Assembly: GCA_017521605.1 (NCBI GenBank)
Contig: JAFXCD010000046.1
Span: 51,796 to 115,795, forward strand
DNA: 64,000 nt
Source of the DNA: Lachnospiraceae bacterium
GTDB lineage: Bacteria > Bacillota > Clostridia > Lachnospirales > Lachnospiraceae
Direction: 5' to 3'
This document shows positions 37,486-60,181 of this stretch, in pieces. The notes beneath the pieces are model-generated. The model was not told the origin of the DNA. It ran no database searches and saw only the letters and a list, made by a program, of their open reading frames with translations. The stretch's first letter is position 1. Every line of letters starts with the position of its first letter. The position numbers were made by a program, and so were the translations under genes.

Positions 37486-37530
37486 ATTCTCACCTCCCGC
37501 CATTGGTATTTGAAATCGACTTCACCTATA

Positions 37531-37558
37531 AAGACGTAGGGGAACACGAAAAGGTTCA
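37531..37558 (-). promoter_or_regulatory. ECF-type promoter of the long sigma gene
   Basis: On the minus strand TGAACC (37558-37553), a 16-nt spacer and CGTCTT (37536-37531). This is the usual ECF layout (AAC-containing -35, CGTC-type -10). GTGAAG follows at 37525-37520, at the same distance as in the two other ECF-like promoters in this window. Confidence 0.75.
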
Positions 37559-37569
37559 GTATTATAAAA

Positions 37570-37605
37570 AATCCCGGAATAATTTTACTAAAACCTTCCG
37601 GGATT
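37570..37605 (-). terminator. Terminator of the UDP-sugar operon
   Basis: AATCCCGGAA (37570-37579) pairs with TTCCGGGATT (37596-37605); on the minus strand a run of T follows. Confidence 0.85.
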
Positions 37606-37615
37606 CGCTTTTTAT

Positions 37616-38632
37616 TTATTCCTCATATCCATTAGGGTTATTACTTTGCCATCTCCAAGAGTCAGCACACATTTCTCTAATACCGTACTGTGCTTCCCAG
37701 CCAAGTTCTTCCTTCGCTTTGCTTGCATCTGCATAGCAGATGGCAATGTCTCCGGGACGCCGTTCCTTAATCACATAAGGCACCTGTACACCTGTAGCTT
37801 CTTCAAAATTCTTTACTATATCAAGCACACTGTAACCGGTTCCGGTTCCCAGATTATAAATCTTAAGACCGGCATTTTCCTCTACCTTTTTCAGTGCCTT
37901 CACGTGCCCCATAGCCAAATCTACCACATGGATATAGTCACGCACACCGGTACCGTCATGGGTATCATAATCATTACCGAATACACCCAGCTCACTTCTC
38001 TTGCCTACTGCCACCTGTGTAATGTAAGGCATCAGATTGTTTGGAATACCGCTGGGATTTTCACCGATGGTTCCGCTCTTATGCGCACCAATAGGATTAA
38101 AATAACGAAGCAGTATTACATTCCATTCCGGATCTGCTTTCTGAATATCAGACAATACCTGCTCCAGCATGGATTTAGTCCAGCCGTAAGGATTGGTGCA
38201 CTGTCCCTTGGGACATTCCTCGGTAATCGGAATAAACGCAGGATTGCCATAAACAGTAGCACTGGAAGAGAAAATAATATTTTTACAACCATGCTTCCTC
38301 ATCACATCCACCAAAGTCAAGGTACCTGCAATATTGTTCTCATAATATTCCCAAGGCTTCTGTACAGATTCTCCCACTGCCTTAAGACCTGCAAAATGGA
38401 TCACGGCGTTAGGTTTTTCCTTGGAGAATATCTCCTCCAAAGCCTCTCTGTCCAAAATATCCGCTTTATAAAAAGGCACCTTCTTACCGGTAATGGAAGC
38501 TACTCTTTCCAGGGACTTCTCACTGGAATTGCTTAAATTGTCCAAAACCACTACATCATAACCGGTATTCTGCAATTCTACTACGGTATGGCTACCGATA
38601 TAGCCGGCACCGCCTGTTACTAATATTTTCAT
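37616..38632 (-). CDS. galE: UDP-glucose 4-epimerase
   Basis: A 338-residue SDR-fold epimerase of standard length. It interconverts UDP-glucose and UDP-galactose with bound NAD. Motifs: GGAGYIGSH at residues 7-15, the catalytic Ser in SSSATVYG and YxxxK in [14 protein letters not shown] precedes the start. Third gene of an operon with a UDP-sugar pyrophosphorylase and a small protein; the operon would link galactose use (compare lacZ at 53875) to nucleotide sugars for polysaccharide synthesis. Confidence 0.97.
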
Positions 38633-38652
38633 ATTCTTTTCCTCCAGTATCT

Positions 38653-38844
38653 CTACTCCGCCAAAAATTCCGTCTGAAACTCCGCATTAATCTCTGCGAT
38701 TTCCTTCTTGCCGTCTATGTAATCCTTATACATATCCCACAAATCGATTTCGCAATCTTCCAGTCCGTCATCTACAGGCTGCCACTCCTTAATCAGGGCA
38801 ATTCTTTCCTGTAAAGTTGTATCTTTTATCAATATACTCTTCAT
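38653..38844 (-). CDS. Small conserved protein in the UDP-sugar operon, unknown
   Basis: A 63-residue acidic, helical protein ([36 protein letters not shown]). Its ATG lies two bases after the stop of the pyrophosphorylase gene, with no strong ribosome binding site of its own, so translation is probably coupled. The position between UDPGP and galE suggests a role in that pathway, but no motif tells what. Confidence 0.7.
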
Positions 38845-38846
38845 AG

Positions 38847-40073
38847 TTATAGCACCACACCATTTTGCTTCAGAAGTGCTTTTGCACTCTCTACGGAATC
38901 CACACCGGTTTTATTCTTAATAGGCGCAAACTCCCTCTCTCGTACTACCTCGTAAGGCAAACATGTATCCAGCTGATGAATCATATCCAGCACCAGATTC
39001 TCATACTTATAGCCATTGGGCTCTTCAGGCTTTACCAATTCACCGGCTTCATTCAAATAAGGAATCTTTTTCTCTACGATATGAAGCGGCAGGCTACCAT
39101 CCAACAGCCCTTCCAATGCTTTTTCATTAAATAAATAATTTAAAATCACACCAAAGTTATAGGCCGGATCACCCTTTGTATCCTTGGCATTCATTAATTC
39201 CTCAGTCAGTTCATAATACTCCACTATAGAAGGTCTGCCATCCTCCAGGCACATTACTCCTACCTTTTCATCCGGAGCATTCTTACGAACCACCTTTGCA
39301 CCCACCACACAATTTCTCGCTAAAGTAGCACCAATAAAACAAGGGTCTGCAATTCTTTGTAATACATTATCTACTGCAAAAATATTCAGCCACTCGATAC
39401 CTTCTCTCTTTACCACTTCTAAAAGTCCGGCATTCTTCATGGATACAAACCATCCGCCATTTCCGTTAGGAGAGGTAGAAAGCTTACCCTTTTCTTCCAA
39501 ATAAATCTTTCCACTATAATCAGTAGCTGCTGCCATTTCCTGCTTGAAAAAATGAATATATTCTGCTTTATAACCAAAGAACTCATGCTCTGTTAAGAAC
39601 TTGATGGTGGCATCATTGTTTTTATCACTGGTCATGATAAAAAAATGAATCCAAGTACCCGTCTGCTTCACCACATCCATGAGATTATTCACCAGACACT
39701 CAAATATGTATAAATCCTTGGTTTCACCGATATTGTACATACCCTTAGGGTCGTCAGAGCCAAGTCTGGTACCCATGCCACCTGCAAGAAGCACTGCAGC
39801 TATTTTGCCATCCTGAATCGCCTTGATGCCAATAGCTGTAAAACTCTCTTTATTGGTTTCAATTTCGTCCAACTCCATAGCCGCCAAAGGACTAATTTCG
39901 CCCTTCTTGACCAGTTCCTCCATGTTTTTGCACTTCTCTAAAATACTCATATCCGTTTGTTCAATCTGAGTCAAAAGTGCCTCCTGTTCTGTAGAAGACA
40001 ATTCATTATAATATCTCAGGACATGCTCTTGTCCATATTCTTCACATTTCTGTTTTGCTACTTCGAATGTCAT
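38847..40073 (-). CDS. UDPGP-type UDP-sugar pyrophosphorylase
   Basis: A 408-residue nucleotidyltransferase of the eukaryote-like UDPGP family. The nucleotide-binding motif AVLLAGGMGTRLGSDDPKGMYN is at about residues 92-114, with NGNGGWF and the IFAVDNVLQRIADP metal-site segment downstream. It makes UDP-glucose or UDP-GlcNAc/GalNAc from UTP and the sugar phosphate; the sequence alone does not settle which. GAGGGAG precedes the start. First gene of the galE operon. Confidence 0.9.
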   Translation of the reverse strand: MTFEVAKQKCEEYGQEHVLRYYNELSSTEQEALLTQIEQTDMSILEKCKNMEELVKKGEISPLAAMELDEIETNKESFTAIGIKAIQDGKIAAVLLAGGMGTRLGSDDPKGMYNIGETKDLYIFECLVNNLMDVVKQTGTWIHFFIMTSDKNNDATIKFLTEHEFFGYKAEYIHFFKQEMAAATDYSGKIYLEEKGKLSTSPNGNGGWFVSMKNAGLLEVVKREGIEWLNIFAVDNVLQRIADPCFIGATLARNCVVGAKVVRKNAPDEKVGVMCLEDGRPSIVEYYELTEELMNAKDTKGDPAYNFGVILNYLFNEKALEGLLDGSLPLHIVEKKIPYLNEAGELVKPEEPNGYKYENLVLDMIHQLDTCLPYEVVREREFAPIKNKTGVDSVESAKALLKQNGVVL

Positions 40074-40203
40074 AATACTCCCTCACTTTTAGAAATACTT
40101 TCCAATTATACTTATGCAAGTATACATCATTTACTGATTTTAAGCAATGAATTACACTGATTCTTTAAGTTTTCTTAATATTTCTGTAACATTTCAAAGC
40201 CGT

Positions 40204-41112
40204 CTACAACTCCAATCCTGCAAAGAAATCTTTGTATCCAAGCTTTTCTGCCTTGTATCGTAGGAAATAAGCTTTCATCTCCGGATAGTTCTCTCCCATA
40301 TCCCCAAGCAGTCCTTCCATATTTTCTCCGTTGGCACAGCCCAAATCTAAAAACAAATCCCAGCTTTCCTTGTCAAAGCTACGCTCCTGTAAAAGCACCT
40401 GCCAGGTTTCTTCCTGCTCACAGCCTTTGGTATGCTTCTGTAAATATCTGCTTAAATAGACACGCACTTCCTCTAAAAGCACCTCACTATGCTGCAGGCG
40501 CAACATGCTGAGACGTACCTTTTTCTTTCGTTTTCCTGACAAAAAAGCTTCTAAATCTGTACTACCATAATCCTCTTCGCCACAAAGTACCTGCTTTAAA
40601 TAACCTTCATTATCATCCTCTTCCATTACAGCAAGCAATCTGGCATCCCACTTAGCAAACCACTCTTTGCTACCTGCCGCCGGTAAATCCAGTAAATAAT
40701 AGGCTTCCAAATCCTTCACGGCACCAGCCAGCAAATAAGCAACATCCTCTGACCACTGGTGAAGTTTGTCGTTTTGTACACAGTTGATTTTTTGCAGTGA
40801 ATCTGCATTTGCCAAAACAGCCTTTCCCAGCTCTGTAATCCCCCCCGGCAAAGTAATTTTCTCCAGCCGGCTGCAATAAGCAAAGGCCCAATCTTCTATT
40901 TTCTTTATGGTAGAGGGCAGTATCAACTCTCGGATATGCTTTCGGCTTAAGAAGGCCTTCTTAGCAATCCCGGTCACCTGTCTGCCTTTCACAGTTTCCG
41001 GCACTTGAACTAAAGAAGCACGGCCACCACACGCGGTCACCCACAGTCCATCCTCTGCCTCGTGCAGCTTCAGATAATACCCCTCTCCCTGATACTCGTA
41101 TTCTTTTTTCAT
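40204..41112 (-). CDS. Leucine-rich repeat (BspA-like) protein of the MoxR/VWA operon
   Basis: A 302-residue cytosolic protein. Residues ~30-105 hold two to three LRR_5 repeats (VTGIAKKAFLSRKHIRELILPSTIKKIEDWAFAYCSRLEKITLP). The rest is helical and acidic (~120-300). BspA-type repeats are usually on surface proteins, but no signal peptide is present here. I use the ATG at 41112, six bases downstream of a possible TTG start; it follows the MoxR stop by seven bases. The operon context makes it a likely partner or substrate receptor of the MoxR/VWA pair. Confidence 0.75.
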   Translation of the reverse strand: MKKEYEYQGEGYYLKLHEAEDGLWVTACGGRASLVQVPETVKGRQVTGIAKKAFLSRKHIRELILPSTIKKIEDWAFAYCSRLEKITLPGGITELGKAVLANADSLQKINCVQNDKLHQWSEDVAYLLAGAVKDLEAYYLLDLPAAGSKEWFAKWDARLLAVMEEDDNEGYLKQVLCGEEDYGSTDLEAFLSGKRKKKVRLSMLRLQHSEVLLEEVRVYLSRYLQKHTKGCEQEETWQVLLQERSFDKESWDLFLDLGCANGENMEGLLGDMGENYPEMKAYFLRYKAEKLGYKDFFAGLEL

Positions 41113-41119
41113 AGCCAAA

Positions 41120-42628
41120 TTACAGTCCTAATTCTCCGATTTTCTTCTTGATATCATCCTGGCGCTCACTGAGCATCAGCTCCTGATTGTGACGCTGGTA
41201 GTCCGGGCTCCCAAAGGATGCCAGAAATCGACTGCTTGCGCTGTTTACAGTAAGCTCTGTTACCAAGATAAGCATTTCATTACCCTGTTCAAAGGCTTCC
41301 TCCACAAAGGTAAACAAATAATGTAGCATATCCTGAGTAGATGTTGTTTTTTCCTTCATAGTCGAAACCTCTGCCTCGAACTTCGCCTTCAGGCAGGCAA
41401 ACATGTCATCTTCTGCTAACAATAATAAAGCTTCTTTTCTGGCTTCAGCTAAAAAGCGTAACACCTTTTTATACTTCCTACGCTCCTCTCTGGATAGTGC
41501 ATTGGAACGCTCTAATCCATACATCTGCTTTTGCTTCTGTTCTGCCAGTTTCTCCAATAATTCTACACGGTCAGTACCATCCTGCTTTTCATAAGTATTT
41601 TTTACTACCAGTAGTAGAGCACGGGTATCTGTTAAATAAGCTGCCTGCTCCACCACTTCCTTCATTTCAGCCATGCAACAGTCCAGAAGCATACCCAGCA
41701 AAGATAATCTTTCATCAAAAGCAGCAGCCTTTGCTCTGGTCACGGACTGTTCCGAAGCCTGTCCCTGTAAAATCTCCTCAATATGATAATCTCTCTTATA
41801 TTTATTATACAAATCATAATATGCCGTAAATTCTTTTACGATTCTGTCATTGCGGATATACTGCCCCACCAAGGTTTCATCCACGGGCAGCTTTCCCTCT
41901 TCGTAATGGTACAGGATTTCCGACAAGTCCTCCCAACCACGGGCAGTCACATAACTTCTGCCTTTTGTAGTCATCTCCATATGATAAAAATGCTCCTTCT
42001 TTAAATCCAAGAAGCTTAAAATTGCATTGTGCACCTGTCTTTCGACAGCATATTCCTTCCACACACCATAATCCGCTTCCACCTCCAAAAGCTTCATACG
42101 GTCCATGGTTACCACATCAAATTCCCGTACAGATTTATTATATTCCGGTGGATTTCCTGCAGTAACGATGACCCAGCCCTCCGGCACCTTATGAGGGCCG
42201 AAAACCTTATACTGTAAAAACTGTAGCATGGAAGGTGCCAGAGTTTCTGACACACAATTGATTTCGTCCAGAAACAAAATCCCTTCTTTTAAACCGCCTT
42301 CTTCCATAGTTTCATAAATTGAAGAAATGATTTCACTCATAGTATATTCAGAAACATTATAATCTTTGCCCCCATAGGTTTTGTGGGCGATAAAGGGAAG
42401 TCCAAGTGCTGATTGGCGGGTATGATGAGTCATGGAATAGCTCACCAGTGCAATCCCCATTTCCTGGGCAATCTGCTCCATCACCGCCGTCTTACCGATA
42501 CCCGGTGCTCCCAGCAAAAAGATGGGACGCTGGCGTACTACCGGAATACAATATTCTCCAAACTCATCTTTCTTTAAATAGATATTCACGGAGCTCTTAA
42601 TATACTCCTTTGCCTGCTTTATGTTCAT
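41120..42628 (-). CDS. MoxR-type AAA+ ATPase
   Basis: A 502-residue ATPase. The N-terminal ~270 residues are a MoxR-like AAA+ module with Walker A GAPGIGKTA near residue 41, Walker B GILFLDEIN near 122 and sensor 1 TAGNPPEYNKS near 155. The C-terminal half is helical. Start 42628 is chosen since GGATAGGA is just upstream; the longer frame reaches into the VWA gene. MoxR ATPases act with VWA-domain partners as chaperones that insert cofactors or remodel complexes; the partner gene is directly upstream. Confidence 0.9.
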   Translation of the reverse strand: MNIKQAKEYIKSSVNIYLKKDEFGEYCIPVVRQRPIFLLGAPGIGKTAVMEQIAQEMGIALVSYSMTHHTRQSALGLPFIAHKTYGGKDYNVSEYTMSEIISSIYETMEEGGLKEGILFLDEINCVSETLAPSMLQFLQYKVFGPHKVPEGWVIVTAGNPPEYNKSVREFDVVTMDRMKLLEVEADYGVWKEYAVERQVHNAILSFLDLKKEHFYHMEMTTKGRSYVTARGWEDLSEILYHYEEGKLPVDETLVGQYIRNDRIVKEFTAYYDLYNKYKRDYHIEEILQGQASEQSVTRAKAAAFDERLSLLGMLLDCCMAEMKEVVEQAAYLTDTRALLLVVKNTYEKQDGTDRVELLEKLAEQKQKQMYGLERSNALSREERRKYKKVLRFLAEARKEALLLLAEDDMFACLKAKFEAEVSTMKEKTTSTQDMLHYLFTFVEEAFEQGNEMLILVTELTVNSASSRFLASFGSPDYQRHNQELMLSERQDDIKKKIGELGL

Positions 42629-42642
42629 CTTTCCTATCCTTT

Positions 42643-43932
42643 CTATTCCTCTATAGGTACAACTACCTGCAAACTCCAAGGTGGCACCGGAGAGCGATGT
42701 TCATCCTCCTCCAAAAAAGCAAAAATCACATCATATCCGGGCATCCTCTCCGGATATATGCCATATCCGTCCGTAAAGTAAATCAAACCCTTCAGATTTT
42801 CGAATTCACCCTGTTGCTGTAATTGCTCCACATAATCAAAAACCGGTCTGAAATCCGTACCACCAAACCCTTGTAAACGACCATTTTTCAAGAATCTTTC
42901 AAAATCCTCATCACTTGTGACTTTGGTATCCTGCTGTATGCTATTGTCACACTGAATAATGTGCACATTTATTTTAGAAAAAAAGTTTTCACTACTCTTT
43001 AATATAGAATAGGTCTTTTTCAAAAACTCCCGAACAATCTGCCCTCTACAGGAAGCGGAGGTATCCAAGGCTATGACAAACTCCTTTACCTTCTTACTCT
43101 CCCGATATTCCAGGGGCTCTACCAAAGGCATATTGCCATACAGCTCCAGTCCGTAGGTATAATAAATATAATCAAATTCCTCATCATTTACAGTGATATT
43201 CTCTCCCATTACCGTAAACCGACGCAAGATTTCTCCATAATCATACCTTTCCTTTGTGGCCTCCGAAAGATTCTTTTCCAAACTTTCTGTGTTATTCCTT
43301 GCCTTACTGAAGGCCTTTAAATCCGCTTTGATTCGTTCACTGATTTTCTGCCACTGTTCCTGAGATACTACCAACTCCTCCTTAGGTTGCCAGAGGTAAT
43401 GACTGTCCCGATGAAACAATCGGTTCAACTCTTCCTTCTCCCGTGAAGATATAGGGTTGGTCCGTATATATTTATAAATTCGCTCTGCTGTCAGCACACC
43501 AACATCTTCCTTCCAGACTCGCAGCTTAGCCACCGCCTCTCTATCTGTTTCCACTTGCACCGAGGGTACCTGCAATTCCAGGATGGTATTTTCCACCGCC
43601 AAATCCACTGCTAAATCCCAACACTCCTTTTCCACCTTATCATACTGGAAATTGTGATAAAAAATACAATGAAGTAAGGTATGCAAAAGCATTCTTGTGA
43701 CTCTTTTAGGTTCTTTTTCATATTCATAAAGAACGTACACCGGATCATACTGTAGATCTTTACCATCTGTAGTAATCACGCTGGTTCCCGGGACTTCTTT
43801 CCAAGTAAGCCCGGCCAGTGCCACGTCAAAAAAGCGCAAAGAAACCAGAATATTGTCCCTGGCAAGGGATAATACCTGTCTGGCCAATGCACTGATTTGT
43901 TCTGTTTTTTCCTGTTCCAGTCTATTTGCCAT
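42643..43932 (-). CDS. VWA-like protein with degenerate metallopeptidase domain (DUF2201 type)
   Basis: A 429-residue protein. The N-terminal ~280 residues resemble the putative metallopeptidase part of DUF2201 proteins, but the zinc motif HExxH reads HTLLH (84-88), so the catalytic Glu is missing. The C-terminal ~140 residues are a VWA-like domain with MIDAS motif DTSAS and GGTDFRPVF. ATG at 43932 follows AGAAGG; a GTG six bases upstream is the alternative. First gene of the VWA-MoxR-LRR operon. Probably a binding platform, not an active protease. Confidence 0.85.
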   Translation of the reverse strand: MANRLEQEKTEQISALARQVLSLARDNILVSLRFFDVALAGLTWKEVPGTSVITTDGKDLQYDPVYVLYEYEKEPKRVTRMLLHTLLHCIFYHNFQYDKVEKECWDLAVDLAVENTILELQVPSVQVETDREAVAKLRVWKEDVGVLTAERIYKYIRTNPISSREKEELNRLFHRDSHYLWQPKEELVVSQEQWQKISERIKADLKAFSKARNNTESLEKNLSEATKERYDYGEILRRFTVMGENITVNDEEFDYIYYTYGLELYGNMPLVEPLEYRESKKVKEFVIALDTSASCRGQIVREFLKKTYSILKSSENFFSKINVHIIQCDNSIQQDTKVTSDEDFERFLKNGRLQGFGGTDFRPVFDYVEQLQQQGEFENLKGLIYFTDGYGIYPERMPGYDVIFAFLEEDEHRSPVPPWSLQVVVPIEE

Positions 43933-44034
43933 TTGCACCCTTCTTTCGTCTTTAATCTATCACTATCTGTACCCATTCAGGGTGAGTTTCATTCATAGCT
44001 TTCACCTATTCTACCACATCCCCGGGAACACTAG

Positions 44035-44073
44035 CAAGGGGAACAGGACGTGGAATATGCCCCATTCCCCTTG
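44035..44073 (-). terminator. Terminator after the deacetylase gene
   Basis: CAAGGGGAA (44035-44043) and TTCCCCTTG (44065-44073) form a perfect 9-bp stem with additional pairing in a long loop. Confidence 0.6.
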
Positions 44074-44081
44074 TAAGGATT

Positions 44082-44915
44082 CTACTCTTCTTCCATCAGT
44101 TCCTCCAAAGTTCCAAAGCGGTAACCCATCTCCTCCCACTTCGTCAGCAGTTCATCCATAATCTCTCCATTGGTCCGGGAAGTATTATGTAATAATACAA
44201 TTGCACCGGGATGAATACGGTTTAACAGCTTATCAAAAGCCTCCTCATGACTGGGCTGTTTATCCTGATACCAATCCACATAAGCCAAACTCCAGAAAAA
44301 GGTATGATACCCCAATTCCTTGGCCATCTCCATATTGGAAATACTGTATTTACCCTGAGGAGGACGATAATAAGGCTTCATATCCTCTCCGGTTATTTCC
44401 TTATATAATTTTTCCACATCCTGCATTTCTTTAGTAAAGGCAGCTTTATCAGATATCTTGGACATATCCGGATGGTGATAGGTATGGTTTCCCACGGTGT
44501 GTCCCTCTTCCACCATGCGTTTAATCAGCTCTGGTGCTGTTTCCAGATAATGTCCTACCACAAAAAAAGTTCCCTTGGCATTATGTTTCTTTAGAGCATC
44601 CAAAATAGGCTCTGTATTGCCGTTTTCGAAGCCTGCATCAAAGGTCAGATAAATAACCTTTTCCTTATCATCCCCCACATAATAGGCTTCATATTCCTTC
44701 AATGCCTGAGCCGATTCATTTCCCGTAGGTTGTGTGCCTTTTTCACCAAATCCCAGTCCCCAATTTTCTGTCTGGGTCACAATTCCTGCTGTGGGTGTTG
44801 CTGCATAAGCAATGGCCCTTCCCACAAAAAACATAGCCAATAAAAATACTACTGTCAAAACATTCCTTGCATTCAACCACTCCGGCATTGCTCCCATACT
44901 TCCTAATTGTTTCAT
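44082..44915 (-). CDS. pdaA: PdaA-like polysaccharide deacetylase (sporulation muramic-delta-lactam type)
   Basis: A protein of up to 277 residues with an N-terminal signal/anchor helix (VLTVVFLLAMFFVG). The sequence ENWGLGF, then KYLxxY-type segment and IYLTFDAGFENGNTEPILD match PdaA enzymes, which deacetylate N-acetylmuramic acid during spore cortex synthesis. The NodB motifs are TFDAG (PdaA enzymes vary at the fourth position), HTYHHPDMS and PPQGKYS. The start is uncertain: 44915, 44897 and 44888 are possible, but a longer frame to 44972 would read through the dgt terminator hairpin and is unlikely. Confidence 0.85.
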   Translation of the reverse strand: MKQLGSMGAMPEWLNARNVLTVVFLLAMFFVGRAIAYAATPTAGIVTQTENWGLGFGEKGTQPTGNESAQALKEYEAYYVGDDKEKVIYLTFDAGFENGNTEPILDALKKHNAKGTFFVVGHYLETAPELIKRMVEEGHTVGNHTYHHPDMSKISDKAAFTKEMQDVEKLYKEITGEDMKPYYRPPQGKYSISNMEMAKELGYHTFFWSLAYVDWYQDKQPSHEEAFDKLLNRIHPGAIVLLHNTSRTNGEIMDELLTKWEEMGYRFGTLEELMEEE

Positions 44916-44921
44916 AAAAAT

Positions 44922-44961
44922 AAACCCAACATATATTCTTTGTAGAATATATGCCGGGTTT
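44922..44961 (-). terminator. Terminator of dgt
   Basis: AAACCCAACATATATTC (44922-44938) pairs along its whole length with GAATATATGCCGGGTTT (44945-44961), with two G-U pairs on the minus-strand RNA, followed by ATTTTT. It lies between dgt and the deacetylase gene. Confidence 0.85.
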
Positions 44962-44971
44962 TTCTTCTTCA

Positions 44972-46384
44972 TTACAGGATTCCGCTAAGCTCCTGATAAA
45001 GTCTTTTGGCATAACTGTCCGTCATACCGCAGATGGAATCCGTCACTAAAAGCAAGCGCAAATACAGCTTTTCTTCTTCACTTTTTCCTTCACTGTAAAT
45101 CTTATAAATTGCTTTATAATTATCGGAAACCAGTGCCATCATTTTCTTCTGTACATCTGTTTTATATTCCTGGGTATCATATAAAATTGCCGCTCCAACA
45201 AAACGCTCCAACAGGAAATTCAGGGTTGTCTCTGCTGCAATTTCCAGCTTATAAATAGGCACGGTGATAAAAGCATACTGATAAGCAATATCTCCCAAAA
45301 CATAGGCTAATTTAGCTTCGTAACCTTCGGAAATCAACTCTTTCGTAAATTGTCCATTCATGATTTCATCATAATGCCTTACAAAGGTATTGGTCGCACA
45401 GCTTATAAGCCTCCCTTGTACTGTTACAATCCAGTTTTGTACAGCATTCATATCCGGTCTTGTCATACCCCGCTCTTTTGCCTGGGCATATCGCTTCTCC
45501 AAAAGACGAATAAGCTCAAAATATTCTCCATCCTCGGGTTCTCCCCGACCACCTTGCTTCAATTCAAATAAAAGTTGTTCAAATGTCAAACATCCTTTCT
45601 TAAATGCATCCTCCACATCCGCTGTCTTATAGGCGATATCATCTGCTGCCTCCAACACAAAAGCTAAGGGGTGACGACGTCCATTGGTACCCAGTGTCCT
45701 TTGTATTTCTTCAAAGACTGTTTCTTCTGCATAATAATAACCCATCTTCTTAGTATGTATATCCCCACTGCTTTTATCTATCTTCAAAGAAGAACCGGGA
45801 TATTTAATAATAGTTCCCAAAAGCCCCATGGTCAGATTCATACCATGCTCATCTATTAAATAATGAAGCTTAGTTACCAGGCGAAGCGCCTGAGTATTAC
45901 CTTCAAAATGATAGAAATCATTCAGCATCTGGGGAGTCAGATATTCAGTCAACGCCATTCCTTTAAAGGTCATCCTGCCCATATTATTACGAAACCATTC
46001 TCTGATTACAGTCTCACCAAAATGGCCAAAAGGAGGATTTCCAATATCATGAAGCAATCCTGCACATTCCAGAATATCGCAAACATCATTCTGATTCTCC
46101 GGTGCAAATCCCGGATCCTTAATTTCCTTTAATATCTTCTGAGAAATATTCTGTCCCAAAGACTTGGCAAAGGACGCCACCTCCAACGAATGGGTCAGAC
46201 GGGTACGGATAAAATCGCTCTTATCCAATGGAAACACTTGTGTCTTGTCCTGTAAACGTCGAAAAGATGCACTCCCAATGATTCTATGATAATCCTTTTC
46301 AAATTCTGTCCGCAAATCATTACTCCCATGATTACTTTTCACCCTGCGGATTCTCTCCGGACATAACAATCGGCTCCACTCCAT
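44972..46384 (-). CDS. dgt: Deoxyguanosinetriphosphate triphosphohydrolase-like protein
   Basis: A 470-residue HD-domain enzyme. It hydrolyses dGTP (or other dNTPs) to the nucleoside and tripolyphosphate. Motifs: SASFRRLQDKTQVFPL, RTRLTHSLEVA, GLLHDIGNPPFGHFGE with the HD pair, and ADDIAYKTADVED. The start at 46384 follows AGAAGGAG; the open frame continues 19 codons upstream without a ribosome binding site. It has its own terminator. Confidence 0.95.
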   Translation of the reverse strand: MEWSRLLCPERIRRVKSNHGSNDLRTEFEKDYHRIIGSASFRRLQDKTQVFPLDKSDFIRTRLTHSLEVASFAKSLGQNISQKILKEIKDPGFAPENQNDVCDILECAGLLHDIGNPPFGHFGETVIREWFRNNMGRMTFKGMALTEYLTPQMLNDFYHFEGNTQALRLVTKLHYLIDEHGMNLTMGLLGTIIKYPGSSLKIDKSSGDIHTKKMGYYYAEETVFEEIQRTLGTNGRRHPLAFVLEAADDIAYKTADVEDAFKKGCLTFEQLLFELKQGGRGEPEDGEYFELIRLLEKRYAQAKERGMTRPDMNAVQNWIVTVQGRLISCATNTFVRHYDEIMNGQFTKELISEGYEAKLAYVLGDIAYQYAFITVPIYKLEIAAETTLNFLLERFVGAAILYDTQEYKTDVQKKMMALVSDNYKAIYKIYSEGKSEEEKLYLRLLLVTDSICGMTDSYAKRLYQELSGIL

Positions 46385-50933: not shown

Positions 50934-50961
50934 AAGGGAATTATCTAGGGAGAATATACAA

Positions 50962-51795
50962 ATGACTAAAATAACAAATCAAACATTTGATGAAGAGCGG
51001 GCCTTATACGATAGTAATGGTATTGAACTGACCAATTGCCGTTTTGATGGTCCTGCAGATGGGGAAAGCGCGTTAAAAGAAAGTAGCAACATATTAGTAA
51101 CAGATAGTTTTTTCAACTTACGTTATCCTTTTTGGCACGACCACAAAATATCTATCAACAACTGTGATTTAACAGAAAATTGTCGTGCTGCTCTTTGGTA
51201 TTCGGTAGATATTGCCATTCAGGACACCAAACTACATGGAATTAAAGCACTAAGAGAATGCTCCAATATCCGTATTATCAATTGTGACATCCTTTCACAG
51301 GAATTTGGCTGGTTTTCCAAGGACATTAACATAGAATCCACTAAAGTTATGAGTGAATATTTTATGATGCAAAGTAATAATTTGAACTTTACAGATGTTA
51401 CCTTACAAGGCAAATACTCCTTCCAATACATTACCAATTCTGTTTTTGAAGACTGTAACTTTGACACTAAAGATGCTTTCTGGCATGCCAAAAATACAGT
51501 GATTCGCAATAGTGTGATAAAAGGAGAATATTTAGCATGGTATTGTGAAAATCTGACTTTTGAAAACTGTGTGATTATAGGAACTCAACCTTTCTGCTAT
51601 TGTAAAAATCTCACACTAATTAACTGCGAAATGCATGAAACAGACTTAGCTTTTGAAAAATCAGAGGTTAATGCTTCTATCACGACACCCATAATTAGTA
51701 TTAAGAATCCCCTCCGTGGACAAATCCAAGTTCCGTCCGTAAATGAATTAATTGTGAATGATCCAATGTCAACCTGTAAAATTGACATTTCATAA
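50962..51795 (+). CDS. DUF3737 family protein (right-handed beta-helix)
   Basis: A 277-residue cytosolic protein of the DUF3737 family (NQTFDEERALYDSNGIELTNCRFDGPADGESALKES at the start). About ten short repeats of the type 'N-hydrophobic-xx-N/D-C-x-hydrophobic' indicate a parallel beta-helix. Family proteins are widespread in gut Firmicutes; no activity is established. AGGGAG precedes the start. Single-gene unit closed by a terminator. Confidence 0.9.
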   Translation: MTKITNQTFDEERALYDSNGIELTNCRFDGPADGESALKESSNILVTDSFFNLRYPFWHDHKISINNCDLTENCRAALWYSVDIAIQDTKLHGIKALRECSNIRIINCDILSQEFGWFSKDINIESTKVMSEYFMMQSNNLNFTDVTLQGKYSFQYITNSVFEDCNFDTKDAFWHAKNTVIRNSVIKGEYLAWYCENLTFENCVIIGTQPFCYCKNLTLINCEMHETDLAFEKSEVNASITTPIISIKNPLRGQIQVPSVNELIVNDPMSTCKIDIS

Positions 51796-51799
51796 AAAC

Positions 51800-51830
51800 A
51801 ACCCTGAAAGTTTTACCGACTTTCGGGGTT
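51800..51830 (+). terminator. Terminator of the DUF3737 gene
   Basis: AACCCTGAAAGT (51800-51811) pairs with ACTTTCGGGGTT (51819-51830) with one G-U pair, followed by T-rich DNA. Confidence 0.85.
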
Positions 51831-51923
51831 TTCATTTCTCTGACACACCAAATATCTATTGTCGTACCTTTAGATATATGTTATTATAATACAAAATTTC
51901 TTGCATAAACAGAAAGTGTTGTT

Positions 51924-52301
51924 ATGGAACCCACTATATTGATATTATTAATTTCGGCTTTATTAATTACTTTACTAATTGAAAGTGTTATTGTGTTACC
52001 TCTTTTTCATAAACATTGCAACAGTTTTTCTAAATTAGTAATTAATTTTATCTTGATTAATGCTATTACTAATTTAACACTCAACACTCTTATAGTAATT
52101 GGAATAGCAAGTGCCAATTGGCTGGAACTAATAATTCCACTTATTGAAGCTGCCCTGTTCTCATATACCGGCATAAAGAGGAGCCGGAAAGCCATTATTC
52201 TTATTTGTTACATTGCAAACTTTTTCTCATGGGCTATTGGTCTCCCTTTGATTGATATTTTATTTGCAGGTAATTTAGGTTTCCTCATACCTGTATTCTG
52301 A
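51924..52301 (+). CDS. Small polytopic membrane protein, unknown
   Basis: A 125-residue protein with four predicted membrane helices (about 5-28, 40-62, 66-85, 92-120). The only upstream purine stretch is weak (AGAAAG), so expression may be low. It is followed after 10 bp by an MFS-like gene, then a 52-residue membrane protein, and the three seem to be one operon. No family recognised. Confidence 0.7.
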   Translation: MEPTILILLISALLITLLIESVIVLPLFHKHCNSFSKLVINFILINAITNLTLNTLIVIGIASANWLELIIPLIEAALFSYTGIKRSRKAIILICYIANFFSWAIGLPLIDILFAGNLGFLIPVF

Positions 52302-52311
52302 GGAATTATTT

Positions 52312-53337
52312 ATGAACAAAATTACTAATAACCTATCCTTTACTTACTTTGTTATTCATGCATTGGTAGAACTAATCTGTTTTTCACTTTTGTACAATGG
52401 ATTAGGACCGGGAATAACCTTTATTATTGCTTTTACCTTTGATTTTTTTGCATTTGTTCCACAAGCAATATTTGGTGAATTAAGCAATCACTTTCCCAAA
52501 CTTGATATTGGTTCCATCGGTGTCCTATTAATGGGGATATCCATATTTTTTCTAAATCAGCAGGAATTATCACTGTACATATGTGGTGTCCTCATCCTTG
52601 GTTTGGGAAATGCACTGTTACATGAGGCAGGCGCTATTGCTACCGTAATTGTCAGCAACGGACGTTTATTTCCCAGCGCCTTATTTGTTAGTGGCGGTTC
52701 TTTTGGTCTTATTATTGGACAAACTATAGGGAAAGCAGGACTCAATACTTATTGGTTGCTTCTCCCATTACTTATTATTGAAATAATGGTCTTATATTCA
52801 AATAAACATTGGTTGCTTGCAGAACGCAAAATGCCTGTTTTTCAAATTACTAAAGAAAACAAAAGTGAACAGCTTATTATCTTAGTGGCTTTCCTGGTGA
52901 CAGTTATTCGTTCCCACATTGGATATGCTATTCCTATATCTTGGAACAAAACTCTATGGCAAGCATTTTTGCTTTTCTTTATTATGGGACTTGGAAAAGC
53001 CATGGGTGGTTATTGGTCCGACAAATATGGAGCACGAAAAGTTGGTGTATTCTCAACCCTGTTTTGCATTCCCTTTTTAATAATCGGAAAAAACATAATG
53101 TTATTATCCATTATCGGTGTATTTCTATTTTCACTAACCATGTCCATCTGTTTTGGCATGTTACTTAGTGTCATTAAAGACAATCCCGGAGTGGCCTTTG
53201 GCATTACTACCATAGGCTTGTTCCTCGGTTTATGTCCTGTAATGTTTTTTGGTTCTATGGGTTATCTTTTTGATAGTATACTGATAGTTATTTTATCACT
53301 GCTAAGTGCCTTTGGGCTACATAAAACACTACGTTGA
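52312..53337 (+). CDS. Major-facilitator-like membrane protein
   Basis: A 341-residue membrane protein with about ten to eleven helices, shorter than typical 12-helix MFS transporters. The segment GKAMGGYWSDKYGARKVG near residue 230 is an MFS motif A (GxxxDrxGrrk type) between helices. GAGGAA precedes the start. It lies between two small membrane-protein genes that may be accessory subunits. The substrate cannot be predicted. Confidence 0.75.
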   Translation: MNKITNNLSFTYFVIHALVELICFSLLYNGLGPGITFIIAFTFDFFAFVPQAIFGELSNHFPKLDIGSIGVLLMGISIFFLNQQELSLYICGVLILGLGNALLHEAGAIATVIVSNGRLFPSALFVSGGSFGLIIGQTIGKAGLNTYWLLLPLLIIEIMVLYSNKHWLLAERKMPVFQITKENKSEQLIILVAFLVTVIRSHIGYAIPISWNKTLWQAFLLFFIMGLGKAMGGYWSDKYGARKVGVFSTLFCIPFLIIGKNIMLLSIIGVFLFSLTMSICFGMLLSVIKDNPGVAFGITTIGLFLGLCPVMFFGSMGYLFDSILIVILSLLSAFGLHKTLR

Positions 53338-53351
53338 AAGGAGGTTATTCT

Positions 53352-53510
53352 ATGTTGACTTTATTAAATCACTCATTCCCATTGGATGCGATTGTTTCAC
53401 CCTTTGAAGAGTTATCCTATACACTCCGTTCTTACTGGCCATTAGCTATAGCTATTTTATTGGTTGTAATTATTTTGATTTTCATCTTTAAAAAAATCAA
53501 TAAAAAATAG
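53352..53510 (+). CDS. Small single-pass membrane protein (52 residues)
   Basis: An ATG at 53352, with AAAGGAGG upstream, opens a 52-codon frame that ends at the TAG at 53508-53510. The first ~28 residues are polar (HSFPLDAIVSPFEELSY) and the rest is one membrane helix ending in FKKINKK. The ribosome binding site overlaps the end of the MFS-like gene, and the terminator stem includes the stop codon, so it is the last gene of that operon. Confidence 0.75.
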   Translation: MLTLLNHSFPLDAIVSPFEELSYTLRSYWPLAIAILLVVIILIFIFKKINKK

Positions 53511-53536
53511 ACATTTCCGCTGAAATGTCTATTTTT
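53506..53536. terminator. Bidirectional terminator
   Basis: AATAGACATTTC (53506-53517) and GAAATGTCTATT (53522-53533) form a perfect 12-bp stem with a CGCT loop, followed by T-runs on both sides. Confidence 0.9.
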
Positions 53537-53542
53537 ATTCTA

Positions 53543-53848
53543 TTAAATCTCATAATCCATACAAGCTCTGGTTTTAGTATACGGCCTTACCTTTGTATCT
53601 GCTACTTCCACATGTGCAGGATGTACTGCATATCTCTTTAAAGAAGCTTCATCTGTAAAAGTTGAATCCAGCATCACATCTACATTAGAAGATGCAAGAC
53701 AATCTGTCTGCACTTTAATCTCCACCAAACCATCAATCTGCCCCTGCAAACCTTCCAAACCAGTCTTAATACCTGTTTTGACACTTTCCTTCTCCTCTGC
53801 ACTCAACTCATCCTTCAACTGCCATAAAATCACATGCTTTACCATCAT
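53543..53848 (-). CDS. Dabb family protein (stress-responsive alpha/beta barrel)
   Basis: A 101-residue protein of the Dabb ferredoxin-like fold: VKHVILWQLKDE at the start, a central LVEIKVQ and the end HPAHVEVADTKVRPYTKTRACMDYE. Such proteins dimerise and have mostly unknown roles. Two successive ATGs are possible (53848 and 53845); GAGAGGA is just upstream. It lies downstream of lacZ on the same strand, 26 bp away, and may be co-transcribed with it. Confidence 0.9.
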   Translation of the reverse strand: MMVKHVILWQLKDELSAEEKESVKTGIKTGLEGLQGQIDGLVEIKVQTDCLASSNVDVMLDSTFTDEASLKRYAVHPAHVEVADTKVRPYTKTRACMDYEI

Positions 53849-53874
53849 ATGTTCCTCTCTTTCTATATTTATAT

Positions 53875-56904
<3,030 letters not shown>

Positions 56905-56939
56905 CTATACGACTCTGAATAGTTCTATTTTGCATGGAA

Positions 56940-56955
56940 TTGACTCATAAGTCAA
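56940..56955. promoter_or_regulatory. Shared palindrome of the lacZ/araC divergent promoters
   Basis: TTGACT-CATA-AGTCAA is a perfect 6-bp-arm palindrome. On the plus strand its left arm is the -35 of an araC promoter (TTGACT-N17-TATTGT, 56940-56968). On the minus strand the other arm is a -35 hexamer TTGACT facing lacZ, with a weaker -10 (CAAAAT) 17 nt further. RNA polymerase could probably use only one direction at a time. Confidence 0.5.
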
Positions 56956-57003
56956 TAAATGATATTGTCATTATATAACAATATGAACATGGAGATAAAA
57001 TTT

Positions 57004-57810
57004 ATGGCTTTTTATGACTTTCCCATTATCGGTACCGAAAGCGAATTACCCCTCTACCTAGTGAATGTAGGACTTCATGAAAGACAGAACCACATCATCC
57101 GCGAAGAAGGCTTCAGCTATCCTCAGATACTTTATTGTACAAAGGGTAGCGGCACCCTGATTTTGGAAGGCAGACATTATAGTATTCAACCCTACATGGC
57201 CTTCTTTTTGCCTACAGGCTATCCTCACGAATACTGGGCAGAAGAAGATATTTGGGACATTCACTGGGTCGTGCCATCCGGCTTTGCGATAAATGAACTT
57301 TTGAAACATTTTGGTCTGAATAAGCCCAGAATCTTTGAACTGGGAGACACCCGTACTTTGGACCATCATTTTCGAAAGTTGCACGATGCCTTGATAGGAG
57401 ACCGGTTTTTTGGCAACTATCGCGCCGCCGGTTTTTTGTACGATTTTCTCATTGAGTTTTATCGTCTTACCTCTCAGGTCAACACCGGCATTACTGCCCA
57501 TTCCGCTGTTATCAGAGCCATGGACTATATCCACACCCACTACCGGGAAGAGATAACCATGGAAGATCTCTGTGCTTGTACCGGAGTATCCAAACAGCAT
57601 CTTTGCCGGCTTTTTCAAACCACCTTGCATTCCCGTCCAATGGAATATATTGCCAAGTGCCGAATCCAGGCAGCAAAAGAGCTGCTCTCCAATACCCTTA
57701 CTTCTGTGGAAGAAATCGCAGAAGAAACCGGTTTTTGTACCAGCAGCTACTTTTGTAAACTATTTAAACGTTATGAAGGAATGACTCCTACTCAATTTAG
57801 AAAAGGATAG
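57004..57810 (+). CDS. AraC family regulator with cupin sensor domain
   Basis: A 268-residue regulator. Residues ~1-150 form a cupin-like sugar sensor (EEGFSYPQILYCTKGSGTLILEGRHYSIQPYMAFFLPTGYPHEYW). The C-terminal ~100 residues hold two HTH motifs (TMEDLCACTGVSKQHLCRLFQ; VEEIAEETGFCTSSYFCKLFKRYEGMTPTQFRK). The start at 57004 follows GGAG by nine bases; the longer frame begins inside the promoter. It very likely activates divergent lacZ in response to a sugar. Confidence 0.92.
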   Translation: MAFYDFPIIGTESELPLYLVNVGLHERQNHIIREEGFSYPQILYCTKGSGTLILEGRHYSIQPYMAFFLPTGYPHEYWAEEDIWDIHWVVPSGFAINELLKHFGLNKPRIFELGDTRTLDHHFRKLHDALIGDRFFGNYRAAGFLYDFLIEFYRLTSQVNTGITAHSAVIRAMDYIHTHYREEITMEDLCACTGVSKQHLCRLFQTTLHSRPMEYIAKCRIQAAKELLSNTLTSVEEIAEETGFCTSSYFCKLFKRYEGMTPTQFRKG

Positions 57811-57826
57811 CTCTCACTATCCTTTT
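57801..57826. terminator. Bidirectional terminator overlapping the araC stop
   Basis: AAAAGGATAG (57801-57810) and CTATCCTTTT (57817-57826) form a perfect 10-bp stem. It includes the TAG stop of the AraC gene and serves the convergent anti-sigma gene. Confidence 0.85.
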
Positions 57827-57840
57827 CCGGTTTCTACTCT

Positions 57841-59442
57841 TTACTTCAACATCTTCACAATCATATAATATCTCTCTGCGTCTAATTCCAACAAAACTTC
57901 CTTTATGCCCTTCTCCAAGTCAAAGCCATAATTCTGGTCTTCAATACAAATATTTCCGTTCTCCAGGATTGCAGCCGCCTGCTCTGTAAATCTAAGATTG
58001 GTCAACAGATTGGGCATGTTATCGTAACAATAATTATCCCTAAACTCCGCCTGTGGCTCGTAGGTGTTGCATGCACCGGACTTTTTATAGTCAAAATCCA
58101 CCTTTACGCTGCTGTCTGCAGGGATGGTAATGGTTTCGCTCAGCAGATACACTGACTCATAATCCCATACCGCATAGGCAATATCCGAAATACTTTTCTC
58201 ATAAAACACCTGATCCTTAGGGGTATCCACTCCGTCATTTGCCCAGAGGTACATATCGCTAAACATATGTGCCATACGCTCATAATACAAGTCCATAAGC
58301 TCTCCGGAAGGTCTGTCAGCATCCTTTTCCAGCTTCTTTAGCTGTATATCCATTTGTTCCTTTAATACATCCTTTACGGTTGTTTCATAAATCTTCATCT
58401 TCGCGGTCACCTTATCGGATTTGTTCTCATCCGTTATATCTACATATGTGTATCCCTGCTCTATGCATTCTGTAGGTGCTTCTCCCAGGAAATATACCGC
58501 CGCGTTGGCCTGCTCTGCCAAAAGAGTGCTTAGATTAAAACTTACCTGCAGATATTCACCATCATATTCTGTGGTATAGTTATGAGCTGTAAATACCTTA
58601 TTCGGGGCTTCTACCTCAAACTTTACCACATAGGTGGCGATATTCTGGGGAACATTCTGCGAATCCCAGTCCTCCAATTCGTATGCCCATACCTTCTGCT
58701 TCATCAATTCTTCATCGATTGCACCGTTTAAAGGCTTCACTTCCTTCAGCATAGAAGGATACTCATCTGTGGATACGGTAGGTCCGAACAGGCGAGGCAT
58801 ACCTTCGCTATCCTCTCCCATATAAGCACCATTCAATATCATTGTGTCTCTTACCACACCATCTACCGTAAGCTGAGGCGGATAAGTGCTCAACTCCCAA
58901 ACATCCGTTACATAAGGATAATATACCGTCACTGTTTCATCCTTATCCGTAGTATTGGACAAAACATAGCTGTCTCTAATGGGCACGTAGCCCTTATCTT
59001 CTTTGCTCACTGCACTAAAGTCATAGAGCAGTTCTCTCTCTGCTGTAATCCCTTCCTTTTCCTCTGCTAATGTAAGAGGCATGATGGGACCGGGATTAAA
59101 ATCCACCCAGCCAAGCTCAGGCATCATACCATAATCCTTAGAGGATTCCTGTTGTGTCCAATCATCATCCAGTATAGGTGTGGCTGATGGGTCATAATAA
59201 TCCGGGCCATTGCCGTCTCCCTGATGGTTAGGCTGTGTACTCACAGTAGGTTGATGCTCATCCATAACCGGCCTGTTTACAATATAGTTCGCTCCAAACA
59301 GCAGTGCCAGGCAAGCTGCACTCACCATAAGTCCCCCATATACTCCGAACCAACTTTTTCTCTTCTTTTGTCTATCGCTTCTTAAAATCAATGTATCATC
59401 TATATAACCAATTGCTTGAAATAACTCTTCTGCCTGCGTCAT
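57841..59442 (-). CDS. Putative membrane-bound anti-sigma factor
   Basis: A 533-residue protein with a short cytosolic N-terminus (~1-30), one membrane helix (about 34-52) and a ~480-residue extracytoplasmic part, Asp/Glu- and Tyr-rich and mostly beta. Its start overlaps the stop of the ECF sigma gene (ATGA), the normal arrangement for a sigma/anti-sigma pair. No ZAS-type zinc motif is seen, and the layout resembles DUF4179-type anti-sigma proteins of Clostridia. Assignment rests on position and topology. Confidence 0.75.
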   Translation of the reverse strand: MTQAEELFQAIGYIDDTLILRSDRQKKRKSWFGVYGGLMVSAACLALLFGANYIVNRPVMDEHQPTVSTQPNHQGDGNGPDYYDPSATPILDDDWTQQESSKDYGMMPELGWVDFNPGPIMPLTLAEEKEGITAERELLYDFSAVSKEDKGYVPIRDSYVLSNTTDKDETVTVYYPYVTDVWELSTYPPQLTVDGVVRDTMILNGAYMGEDSEGMPRLFGPTVSTDEYPSMLKEVKPLNGAIDEELMKQKVWAYELEDWDSQNVPQNIATYVVKFEVEAPNKVFTAHNYTTEYDGEYLQVSFNLSTLLAEQANAAVYFLGEAPTECIEQGYTYVDITDENKSDKVTAKMKIYETTVKDVLKEQMDIQLKKLEKDADRPSGELMDLYYERMAHMFSDMYLWANDGVDTPKDQVFYEKSISDIAYAVWDYESVYLLSETITIPADSSVKVDFDYKKSGACNTYEPQAEFRDNYCYDNMPNLLTNLRFTEQAAAILENGNICIEDQNYGFDLEKGIKEVLLELDAERYYMIVKMLK

Positions 59443-59996
59443 AGTAATTCCTCCTCTTTCAAATGCTGTTGCAGCTTTTTACGGGTTCTGGACAAAATCA
59501 TCTGAACATTGCTTTCCTTCAAATCATACTTTTTTGCGATAGTCTTGGCATCCTCTGCAAAAAAGTATCTTCTGATAAATACATTACAGTCTCTTTCCGA
59601 AAGAGTATGTAAATAAGTATTGATGGCTTCGATCAGTTCCTTCTGCTCATACAACGCCTCCACACTGTCCCTACCGGCAATCACCTCTTCCAGCTCCTCC
59701 AGTACCAGTCCGATTTCACCGCCGCCACGCTTTTCGCTATGTAAAAAGCGGTACTTATCAAAGGATAAATTTCTGGTTATCTTTCCCAAGAATACTCTTA
59801 AATAAGTAGGAATGGTAGGAGGTATGCTGTTCCAGGTCTTCATCCAGGTATCATTCACACATTCTTCCGAATCTTCCTTACTATGTAACACATTATTCGC
59901 TATGGAAAAGCAATACTGTCCATATTTCTCTGATGTTTTTTCAATAGCTGTTTCTTTTCTATTTAAATATAATTCAATTATCTTTTGATCTTCCAC
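59439..59996 (-). CDS. ECF-type RNA polymerase sigma factor
   Basis: A 185-residue sigma factor with region 2 (EKYGQYCFSIANNVLHSKEDSEECVNDTWMKTWNSIPP...LRVFLGKITRNLSFDKYR) and region 4 (LSERDCNVFIRRYFFAEDAKTIAKKYDLKESNVQMILSRTRKKL). I prefer a GTG start at 59996 because GAGGAGAGG lies just upstream; an ATG at 60011 precedes that sequence and lacks a good site. The gene overlaps its putative anti-sigma gene. Its upstream promoter is the same type as the divergent lipoprotein promoter, suggesting autoregulation. Confidence 0.92.
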   Translation of the reverse strand: MEDQKIIELYLNRKETAIEKTSEKYGQYCFSIANNVLHSKEDSEECVNDTWMKTWNSIPPTIPTYLRVFLGKITRNLSFDKYRFLHSEKRGGGEIGLVLEELEEVIAGRDSVEALYEQKELIEAINTYLHTLSERDCNVFIRRYFFAEDAKTIAKKYDLKESNVQMILSRTRKKLQQHLKEEELL

Positions 59997-60032
59997 TGTT
60001 CCTCTCCTCATTTTGTAAGGCCTTCACTTTAA

Positions 60033-60060
60033 TAGACGTAATTCGAACAAAATTATAACA
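60033..60060 (-). promoter_or_regulatory. ECF-type promoter of the sigma/anti-sigma operon
   Basis: On the minus strand TGTTAT (60060-60055), a 16-nt spacer and CGTCTA (60038-60033), with GTGAAG at 60027-60022. Same layout as the divergent promoter at 60103-60130. Confidence 0.75.
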
Positions 60061-60102
60061 TATTCAGGGTAGAAAAAAAGAAAAAATTTTTTATAATCTT
60101 TT

Positions 60103-60130
60103 TGTTATGTTTTTTGACAAGTCTCGTCTT
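60103..60130 (+). promoter_or_regulatory. ECF-type promoter of the lipoprotein/SBP operon
   Basis: TGTTAT (60103-60108), a 16-nt spacer and CGTCTT (60125-60130), with GTGAAG at 60136-60141. A TTGACA also lies in the spacer (60114-60119) but has no -10 at the right distance. Confidence 0.75.
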
Positions 60131-60181
60131 ATTAGGTGAAGAACAAAAACGACGCACAAAAAGTGCGGGATGGAGGAAATT

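Follow-up and report, generated by a model that had tools for sequence, protein, structure and literature searches.

GTGAAG behind three extracytoplasmic function promoters, a candidate start-site element of Clostridia

Does a six-base sequence that recurs at one fixed distance behind three promoters belong to the promoters, to the messages that they start, or to chance? The question is raised by a stretch of 64,000 nucleotides from a Lachnospiraceae bacterium (contig JAFXCD010000046.1, positions 51,796 to 115,795; hereafter the window), in which three promoters of the extracytoplasmic function (ECF) type, here P1, P2 and P3, share the layout (-35)-N16-CGTCT-N6-GTGAAG and are the three exact matches to CGTCT-N6-GTGAAG. 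P1 lies before the gene of a long sigma factor, P2 before a second sigma gene, and P3 faces P2 and precedes lipoprotein and solute-binding protein genes. Positions are counted from the C of CGTCT as 1, which places the motif at positions 12-17. Re-reading of the coordinates bore out, for all three promoters, the 16-nt spacer, the CGTCT and the GTGAAG at bases 12-17 reported in an earlier note on this DNA, as well as its TGTTAT in both facing promoters and TGAACC at the long sigma gene; its assignment of the promoters to the ECF type is supported by the genes behind P1 and P2, which encode sigma regions 2 and 4 only. The elements are as follows.

37553..37558, minus strand: P1 -35 box TGAACC, before the long sigma gene; kept in 7/7 gene-bearing genomes (TGAACT in one)
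37532..37536, minus strand: P1 -10 box CGTCT; CGTCT or CGACT in orthologs
37520..37525, minus strand: P1 initial-transcribed element GTGAAG; at the same place in orthologs RTGAAR (4) or ACGAAA (2)
37511..37524, minus strand: P1 imperfect dyad TGAAGTCGATTTCA with one G.T pair; in orthologs TGAAACCGGTTTTA, TGAAGCCGGTTTCA, GAAATGCATTTC
60055..60060, minus strand: P2 -35 box TGTTAT, before the second sigma gene
60034..60038, minus strand: P2 -10 box CGTCT
60022..60027, minus strand: P2 initial-transcribed element GTGAAG, extending with the next bases to AAGGCCTT (60017-60024)
60103..60108, plus strand: P3 -35 box TGTTAT, facing P2
60125..60129, plus strand: P3 -10 box CGTCT
60136..60141, plus strand: P3 initial-transcribed element GTGAAG, followed by neither a Shine-Dalgarno sequence nor a complementary arm

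A complement of the motif is partial in P1 and P2 and lacking in P3, and each of the three has a separate Shine-Dalgarno sequence further downstream. Since the T of the -10 is base -9 in the sigmaH open complex (accessible part of PMC6411747), position 12 would by analogy be +1 and GTGAAG the first six bases of the RNA. That GTGAAG is real, has a set position and belongs to a wider pattern is well supported by the analysis described here. In the explanation that we consider best, on which our judgement is evenly balanced, it would be the local form of a third, start-site-anchored promoter element of ECF promoters in Clostridia, which serves initial transcription and is reused in the leader.

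Scans with short patterns give little by number. In the 3.81-Mb genome from which the window comes, the 17-mer CGTCT-N6-GTGAAG has 4 matches, P1-P3 and one within a coding frame, and its reversed control has 3; the evidence therefore lies in the location of the matches, and the test must be positional. The pattern TGTNA-N17-YGTCW-N6-RTGAAR matches this genome twice, at P2 and P3 (control 0), and all 61 genomes searched 10 times against 6 in the control, being weak outside the own genome. When TANRTGAARGGCCTT is taken without a promoter, 7 places are found in the 61 genomes versus 16 in the reversed control; of the seven, L169 and L172 are ECF promoters from the family of the second sigma, and L173 lies before a further gene that is sigma-like by eye. 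The genome scan suggested in the earlier note, run with the short motif, thus finds P1-P3, but it shows no enrichment and would have missed the wider sharing of the motif.

Positional analysis was based on homologs of both window sigmas taken from the 61 genomes. The family of the second sigma contributed 110 upstream regions out of 129 matches, and to these were added 60 region-2 sigma genes from outside that family, hand-picked in six genomes from at least 161 matches with exclusion of frames resembling housekeeping or sporulation sigmas, as well as 19 of the 29 matches to sigma-type genes in the own genome, besides those already in the family set. With the seven long-sigma leaders, 196 upstream regions were available for the wider model. 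A first model, containing the -35 and -10 only, retained 68 promoters with scores of at least 6; RTGAAR stands at the exact distance seen in the window in 20 of these and at another of 24 positions in 1, and position 12 is mostly A or G. The second model extends from the -35 to position 11 and is blind to the initial transcribed region. At a cut-off score of 8 (the 95% point of shuffled sequences being 8.4) it yielded 90 promoters, and TGAA begins at position 12, 13 or 14 in 10 + 26 + 3 = 39 of them, no other of the 30 positions having more than 3. These 39 comprise 22 of the 60 promoters from the second sigma's family and 17 of the remaining 30, seven of the 30 being long-sigma orthologs. A loose histogram of distances from the -35 to RTGAAR in the 60 other sigma upstream regions had no sharp single peak (3, 2, 0 and 3 at 32-35), probably because of the variable spacer and of a gap that is either N5 or N6, which the second model resolved.

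Among the 39 motif promoters, 17 different -10 pentamers occur, and the spacers fall into 25 clusters with a mean identity of 0.29; the identity of the six motif bases themselves was disregarded, this set having been selected for TGAA. As the spacers are unrelated, the motif promoters are not recent copies of one another, which rules out a recent duplication of one promoter. The earlier note had treated GTGAAG as a feature of three CGTCT promoters; the feature proves real and positioned, but private neither to these three nor to CGTCT. It might still be held that GTGAAG is a coincidence within one window, or that its promoters go back to shared descent, and the near-equal counts of the 17-mer in genome and control speak for this. 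Such a reading is nevertheless hardly credible in view of positional peaks in three separate counts (20/68, 39/90 and the 19/28 given below, the first two of which share sequences), of a spacer identity at background, and of the ECF sigmas that make up 55 of 62 proteins behind a pattern that leaves the -10 free; chance was rejected on the positional counts despite the unenriched 17-mer.

A signal at the start site could also reflect a general preference of this RNA polymerase, independent of ECF sigmas, all the more so as initiation on a sigma70-type promoter is affected by the bases transcribed first, according to the accessible part of PMC12464699. As a control, 30 of 31 consensus sigmaA-type promoters of the own genome were used. 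At offsets 6-8 after TATAAT, TGAA is found in 0/30 and TGAG in one, TGAA occurring twice at offset 10; the comparison of 39/90 with 0/30 gives a Fisher p of 9e-7. On this ground the general preference was rejected and is very unlikely.

The element was then sought more widely with the pattern TGTAAC-N22-TATAD-GTGAAAGG, in which the -10 is left free. A single scan of 84,980 species gave 66 matches, the chance expectation being about 6 by an arithmetic estimate. Most come from Clostridia of guts and rumens, the remainder from a few Lactococcus, Loigolactobacillus, other Bacillota and a few others. Downstream proteins were examined in 62 cases, namely 58 of the 66 matches and 4 found later, eight matches that yielded no open reading frame (L314, L318, L320, L338, L346, L348, L352 and L357) being left out; 55 of the 62 match the sigma70-ECF family and 52 have Pfam region 2. 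Moreover, relatives of one scan-derived ECF sigma, a query that itself comes from the motif scan, were gathered from 79 genomes by protein similarity. Thirty loci were taken from a longer match list, and two of them (L450, L454) were dropped as their gene start could not be placed. In the 28 leaders left, RYGAAR stands exactly 6 nt after GT[AT] in 19, and at each other gap in 3 or fewer; without the query and its four closest orthologs the count is 14/23.

Genes of other kinds are also found behind the motif. Three scan matches lie before genes that are of the lipoprotein type by eye (L306, L323, L330), and L314, from a rumen Eubacterium, has two tandem ECF-type promoters (314-344 and 454-484, -10 CGATT), one of them found without the motif, before a STAS-type gene and genes of the non-ribosomal peptide synthetase type, again by eye. 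Together with P3 of the window, these cases mean that non-sigma genes can carry the motif too. Two matches from Patescibacteria (L318, L352) have in common TGTAAC...AAGTTATATA-GTGAAAGGTCGA and an AT-rich stretch before the ATG, by chance or perhaps because a related promoter exists in an unrelated phylum.

Analysis of what follows the motif reveals three kinds of continuation, either a Shine-Dalgarno sequence, the reverse complement CCTTTC, or neither. By eye, the 19 motif leaders of the similarity set divide into 9 that pass into a Shine-Dalgarno sequence like GTGAAAGGAGG and 10 that pass into a complement or palindrome like GTGAAAGGACCTTTCA. A larger set of 153 distinct leaders includes sequences admitted by the motif (66 scan-derived before removal of near-duplicates), so that the arm and mismatch tests made on it speak only of what follows the motif. 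Arms of at least 6 pairs were present in 34 of the 153, whereas exchange of the downstream parts gave 11.9 on average and at most 18. Single arm mismatches are G.T in 12 of 17, a set with related sequences in it, as compared with 6.3 of 14.6 under the null (p 0.02). This bias leans towards pairing as RNA, and clear hairpins with loops of 3-7 nt are seen in L295, L087 and L270. All this would be expected if the element acted only at the level of the mRNA, the 5' GUGAAAGG serving short leaders as an extended Shine-Dalgarno sequence or ribosome entry site and forming, in longer leaders, a 5'-terminal hairpin that would control translation or decay of the sigma mRNA; in particular, 19/19 motif leaders of one family have one or the other continuation. 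On the other hand, the motif stands without either continuation in P3 of the window and in some further leaders, P1-P3 have their separate Shine-Dalgarno sequences, many palindromes are weak as RNA (-0.1 to -3.9 kcal/mol), and the mean folding z-score of all leaders is just -0.45. We therefore regard a purely RNA-level element as possible but doubtful; the Shine-Dalgarno sequence as sole cause is ruled out by the separate ones of P1-P3. Two leaders, L087 (GTGAAAGG-AGGTG-CCTTTCAC) and L097 (...CCTTTCGC), have an 8-pair 5' hairpin that encloses the Shine-Dalgarno sequence, with a G.T pair in L097, and this hairpin is a possible translational switch.

The palindromes may also be looked at as DNA. 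A search of 20 genomes, 16 of them selected because they carry leaders of this kind, yielded TGAAAGG(N)CCTTTCA at 21 places distributed over 15 genomes, and every place is before an ECF-type gene. Seventeen places are known leaders; the other four are before ECF-type genes as well, and in three of these the -35 or -10 pentamer differs from the pattern searched earlier. The exact sequence is absent from the own genome and from three others of its genus. In 47 leaders with arms of at least 5 pairs, loop 0 (21 leaders) and loop 1 (12) are the commonest, so that the centre is usually self-complementary. Such a site could be the operator of a dimeric regulator common to these bacteria, which would bind the start-site palindrome and keep ECF sigma genes off, and the 21/21 places at ECF-type sigma genes agree with this. 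The palindrome, however, ranges from 10 to 15 bp and its centre changes, a variation not easily accommodated by one dimer; the right half is missing from the Shine-Dalgarno class and from P3, and no regulator was identified. An operator is accordingly improbable. The cre operator of CcpA, whose consensus is TGWAANCGNTNWCA, was considered and rejected: in a comparison by eye the P1 dyad fits with one mismatch, neither P2 nor P3 fits, and the relatives most often have GGCC, not NCGN, as centre. Over whole upstream regions inverted repeats are raised at every loop length, probably owing to terminators, and the L284 leader is likely to be such a terminator. In two genomes of the genus (L237, L242), leaders of another ECF family have a perfect 14-bp palindrome, TGAAACATGTTTCA, at the start site.

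We return to the start-site promoter element. Its consensus would be about [GA]TGAAAGG, separated from the -10 pentamer by 6 nt, or by 5 in some families. The fixed position, the occurrence in several ECF families with different -35 and -10 boxes and the absence from the 30 sigmaA-type promoters are established at the level of sequence. The left part GTGAAAGG is common to leaders of the Shine-Dalgarno, hairpin and neither type, and its distance to the -10 is constant whatever the -10, so that the simplest function common to all would be a part in transcription by the class of ECF holoenzymes. The element would cover about +1 to +8 and would help the ECF-type RNA polymerase to make the first RNA and to leave the promoter. 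Help given to a polymerase that lacks sigma regions 1.2 and 3 would explain the link to the ECF class, rather than to the -10 specificity of one sigma. As the first bases of the mRNA the element would then be reused in sigma genes: in short leaders it would be completed to the Shine-Dalgarno sequence GTGAAAGGAGG, and in many longer ones it would be followed by its reverse complement CCTTTC, able to fold the element away. The continuations give the impression of the same bases being put to a second use in the sigma mRNA, and the role in transcription itself we infer from sequence. More tentatively, we propose a specific form of this model, in which a sigma-independent [GA]TGAAAGG at +1 to +8 would be read by the ECF holoenzyme class during initial transcription and the same eight bases would serve as Shine-Dalgarno sequence or as arm of a masking hairpin in the sigma mRNA, coupling transcription start and translation of the sigma.

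Several points weigh against a promoter element of this kind. It is present in fewer than half of the modelled promoters (39/90), and several TGAAAC-N16/17-CGTCT promoters of the same sigma family are without it (L010, L011, L015, L029, L030). The seeds of the first model included promoters seen beforehand to carry the motif, its bases never being in the model. Short patterns alone are not enriched over reversed controls, and the "+1" of P1-P3 is placed by analogy with sigmaH. Known targets outside sigma genes are few, so that the role may be tied to sigma mRNAs, and the excess of complementary arms needs a cause at the RNA or DNA level beyond transcription initiation.

Comparison with known systems shows both likenesses and differences. 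Autoregulated promoters of ECF (group IV) sigmas are known, for instance, for Bacillus sigW, sigX and sigM and Escherichia coli rpoE. Those studied here resemble them in the AAC-type -35 core, the 16-nt spacer, the CGTC-type -10 and the place directly before the sigma gene, and differ in the extra [GA]TGAAAGG at the start site, common to sigmas with different -10 boxes. In the core recognition element, G at +2 of the non-template strand is contacted by the beta subunit. As with this element and other effects of the initial transcribed sequence, a sequence at about +1 to +8 would act after promoter recognition; unlike them, as they are described for sigma70-type promoters generally, the present signal goes with ECF promoters and is absent from the 30 sigmaA-type ones. 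Leaders with 5'-terminal hairpins or a sequestered Shine-Dalgarno sequence likewise have an mRNA 5' end that can pair with a nearby complement, but here the left arm is tied to the start site and is kept even without a right arm.

The accessible parts of two ECF papers (PMC8103513, PMC6411747) make no mention of a start-site element of the [GA]TGAAAGG type. In agreement with the earlier note, for which GTGAAG was not a known part of ECF promoters, no description of an ECF start-site motif was found in the literature searched, most subscription papers and the motif logos of the ECF classification lying outside the search. The GTGAAG-type element in Clostridia appears to be a third part of the promoter, or a leader element, not described before. 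It is usual to define ECF promoters by two boxes, and a third element at a set position, shared by sigmas whose boxes differ, would, if true, improve promoter prediction in gut Clostridia; for the ECF sigmas of Clostridioides difficile, consensus sequences "remain to be identified" according to the accessible part of PMC7438776. In metagenomes it would show where transcription of uncharacterised ECF operons starts, and it would be relevant to the way in which RNA synthesis is begun by ECF polymerases without sigma regions 1.2 and 3; its reuse as Shine-Dalgarno sequence or hairpin arm suggests control of sigma dosage at the level of the leader.

The same promoters allow the wiring of the window to be considered. 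The long sigma gene, taken over its sigma part, is present in 7 of the 61 genomes, the own genome included, and in all seven it is preceded by TGAACC or TGAACT, 16 nt, and CGTCT or CGACT; the motif place in the seven leaders reads GTGAAG, ATGAAA, GTGAAA, GTGAAA, ATGAAG, ACGAAA and ACGAAA. The pattern TGAACYTTT-N13-CGWCT has one match in each gene-bearing genome (7/7), always directly 5' of the long sigma gene. In all 61 genomes there are 12 matches, 5 of them elsewhere, versus 32 in the reversed control, so that the pattern is not enriched and the evidence is one of place, not of number. Conservation of the promoter in 7/7 genomes is what autoregulation predicts and supports it, and its occurrence once per genome points to a long sigma that would act mainly on its own gene. 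In homologs of the second sigma the 16-nt spacer is retained in many and the boxes have changed. The earlier note had deduced autoregulation of both sigmas and control of the lipoprotein/solute-binding protein operon by the second. The first part gains support for the long sigma; for the second sigma, both its autoregulation and its control of the lipoprotein/solute-binding protein genes we infer only from the identical -35 and -10 boxes of P2 and P3, and in genome G036 no lipoprotein gene adjoins the homologous sigma gene. Most likely, each window sigma transcribes its own gene, and the lipoprotein/solute-binding protein genes are transcribed by the second sigma as well. In line with the single occurrence of the long sigma's promoter per genome, TGTAAC-N16-TYGYT-WTATA in 16 genomes recovers only the 18 promoters by which those genomes were selected.

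The genes behind the promoters are the following.

36214..37503, minus strand: long ECF sigma factor, 429 aa as listed; likely start 37485
59439..60011, minus strand: second ECF sigma factor; likely GTG start 59996, preceded by AGGAGAGG
57841..59442, minus strand: gene downstream of the second sigma gene and overlapping it, 533 aa; putative anti-sigma factor
60170..60976, plus strand: lipoprotein gene (by eye), first in the presumed target operon; likely start 60182
61016..63145, plus strand: extracellular solute-binding protein, SBP_bac_8

Both window sigmas have sigma-70 region 2 and region 4 with Pfam scores above cut-off, TIGR02937 is likewise above cut-off, and at E 0.001 neither has a Pfam match to a region 1.1, 1.2 or 3 domain; in domain content both are ECF (group IV) sigma-70 factors. 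A search of solved structures returned nothing but ECF-type sigma factors for the long sigma and no match for the second. The product of 57841-59442 has one N-terminal hydrophobic segment by eye and no family match; no anti-sigma factor gene was recognised for the long sigma.

At its C-terminus the long sigma is extended by about 265 aa (36214-37010), a stretch that is by eye conserved among orthologs as much as the sigma part, has no Pfam match beyond residue 155 and is mostly beta in a low-confidence AlphaFold model (mean pLDDT of the whole protein 45.5); it is possibly a fused sensor domain. The C-terminal domain of ECF41 sigma factors is of the SnoaL type. The long sigma resembles these in having a C-terminal extension and differs from them in that its extension, being without Pfam match, does not show the SnoaL type. 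Fusion of a C-terminal domain in ECF41 is described in the accessible part of PMC3426412.

Finally, two observations concern the lipoprotein leader. AAAAACGACGCACAAA (window 60145-60160) is found again in L006 (2123-2138), where no lipoprotein gene was seen. In the window, the leader contains a hairpin, CGCAC-AAAAA-GTGCG, at 60153-60167, immediately 5' of the Shine-Dalgarno sequence of the lipoprotein gene.

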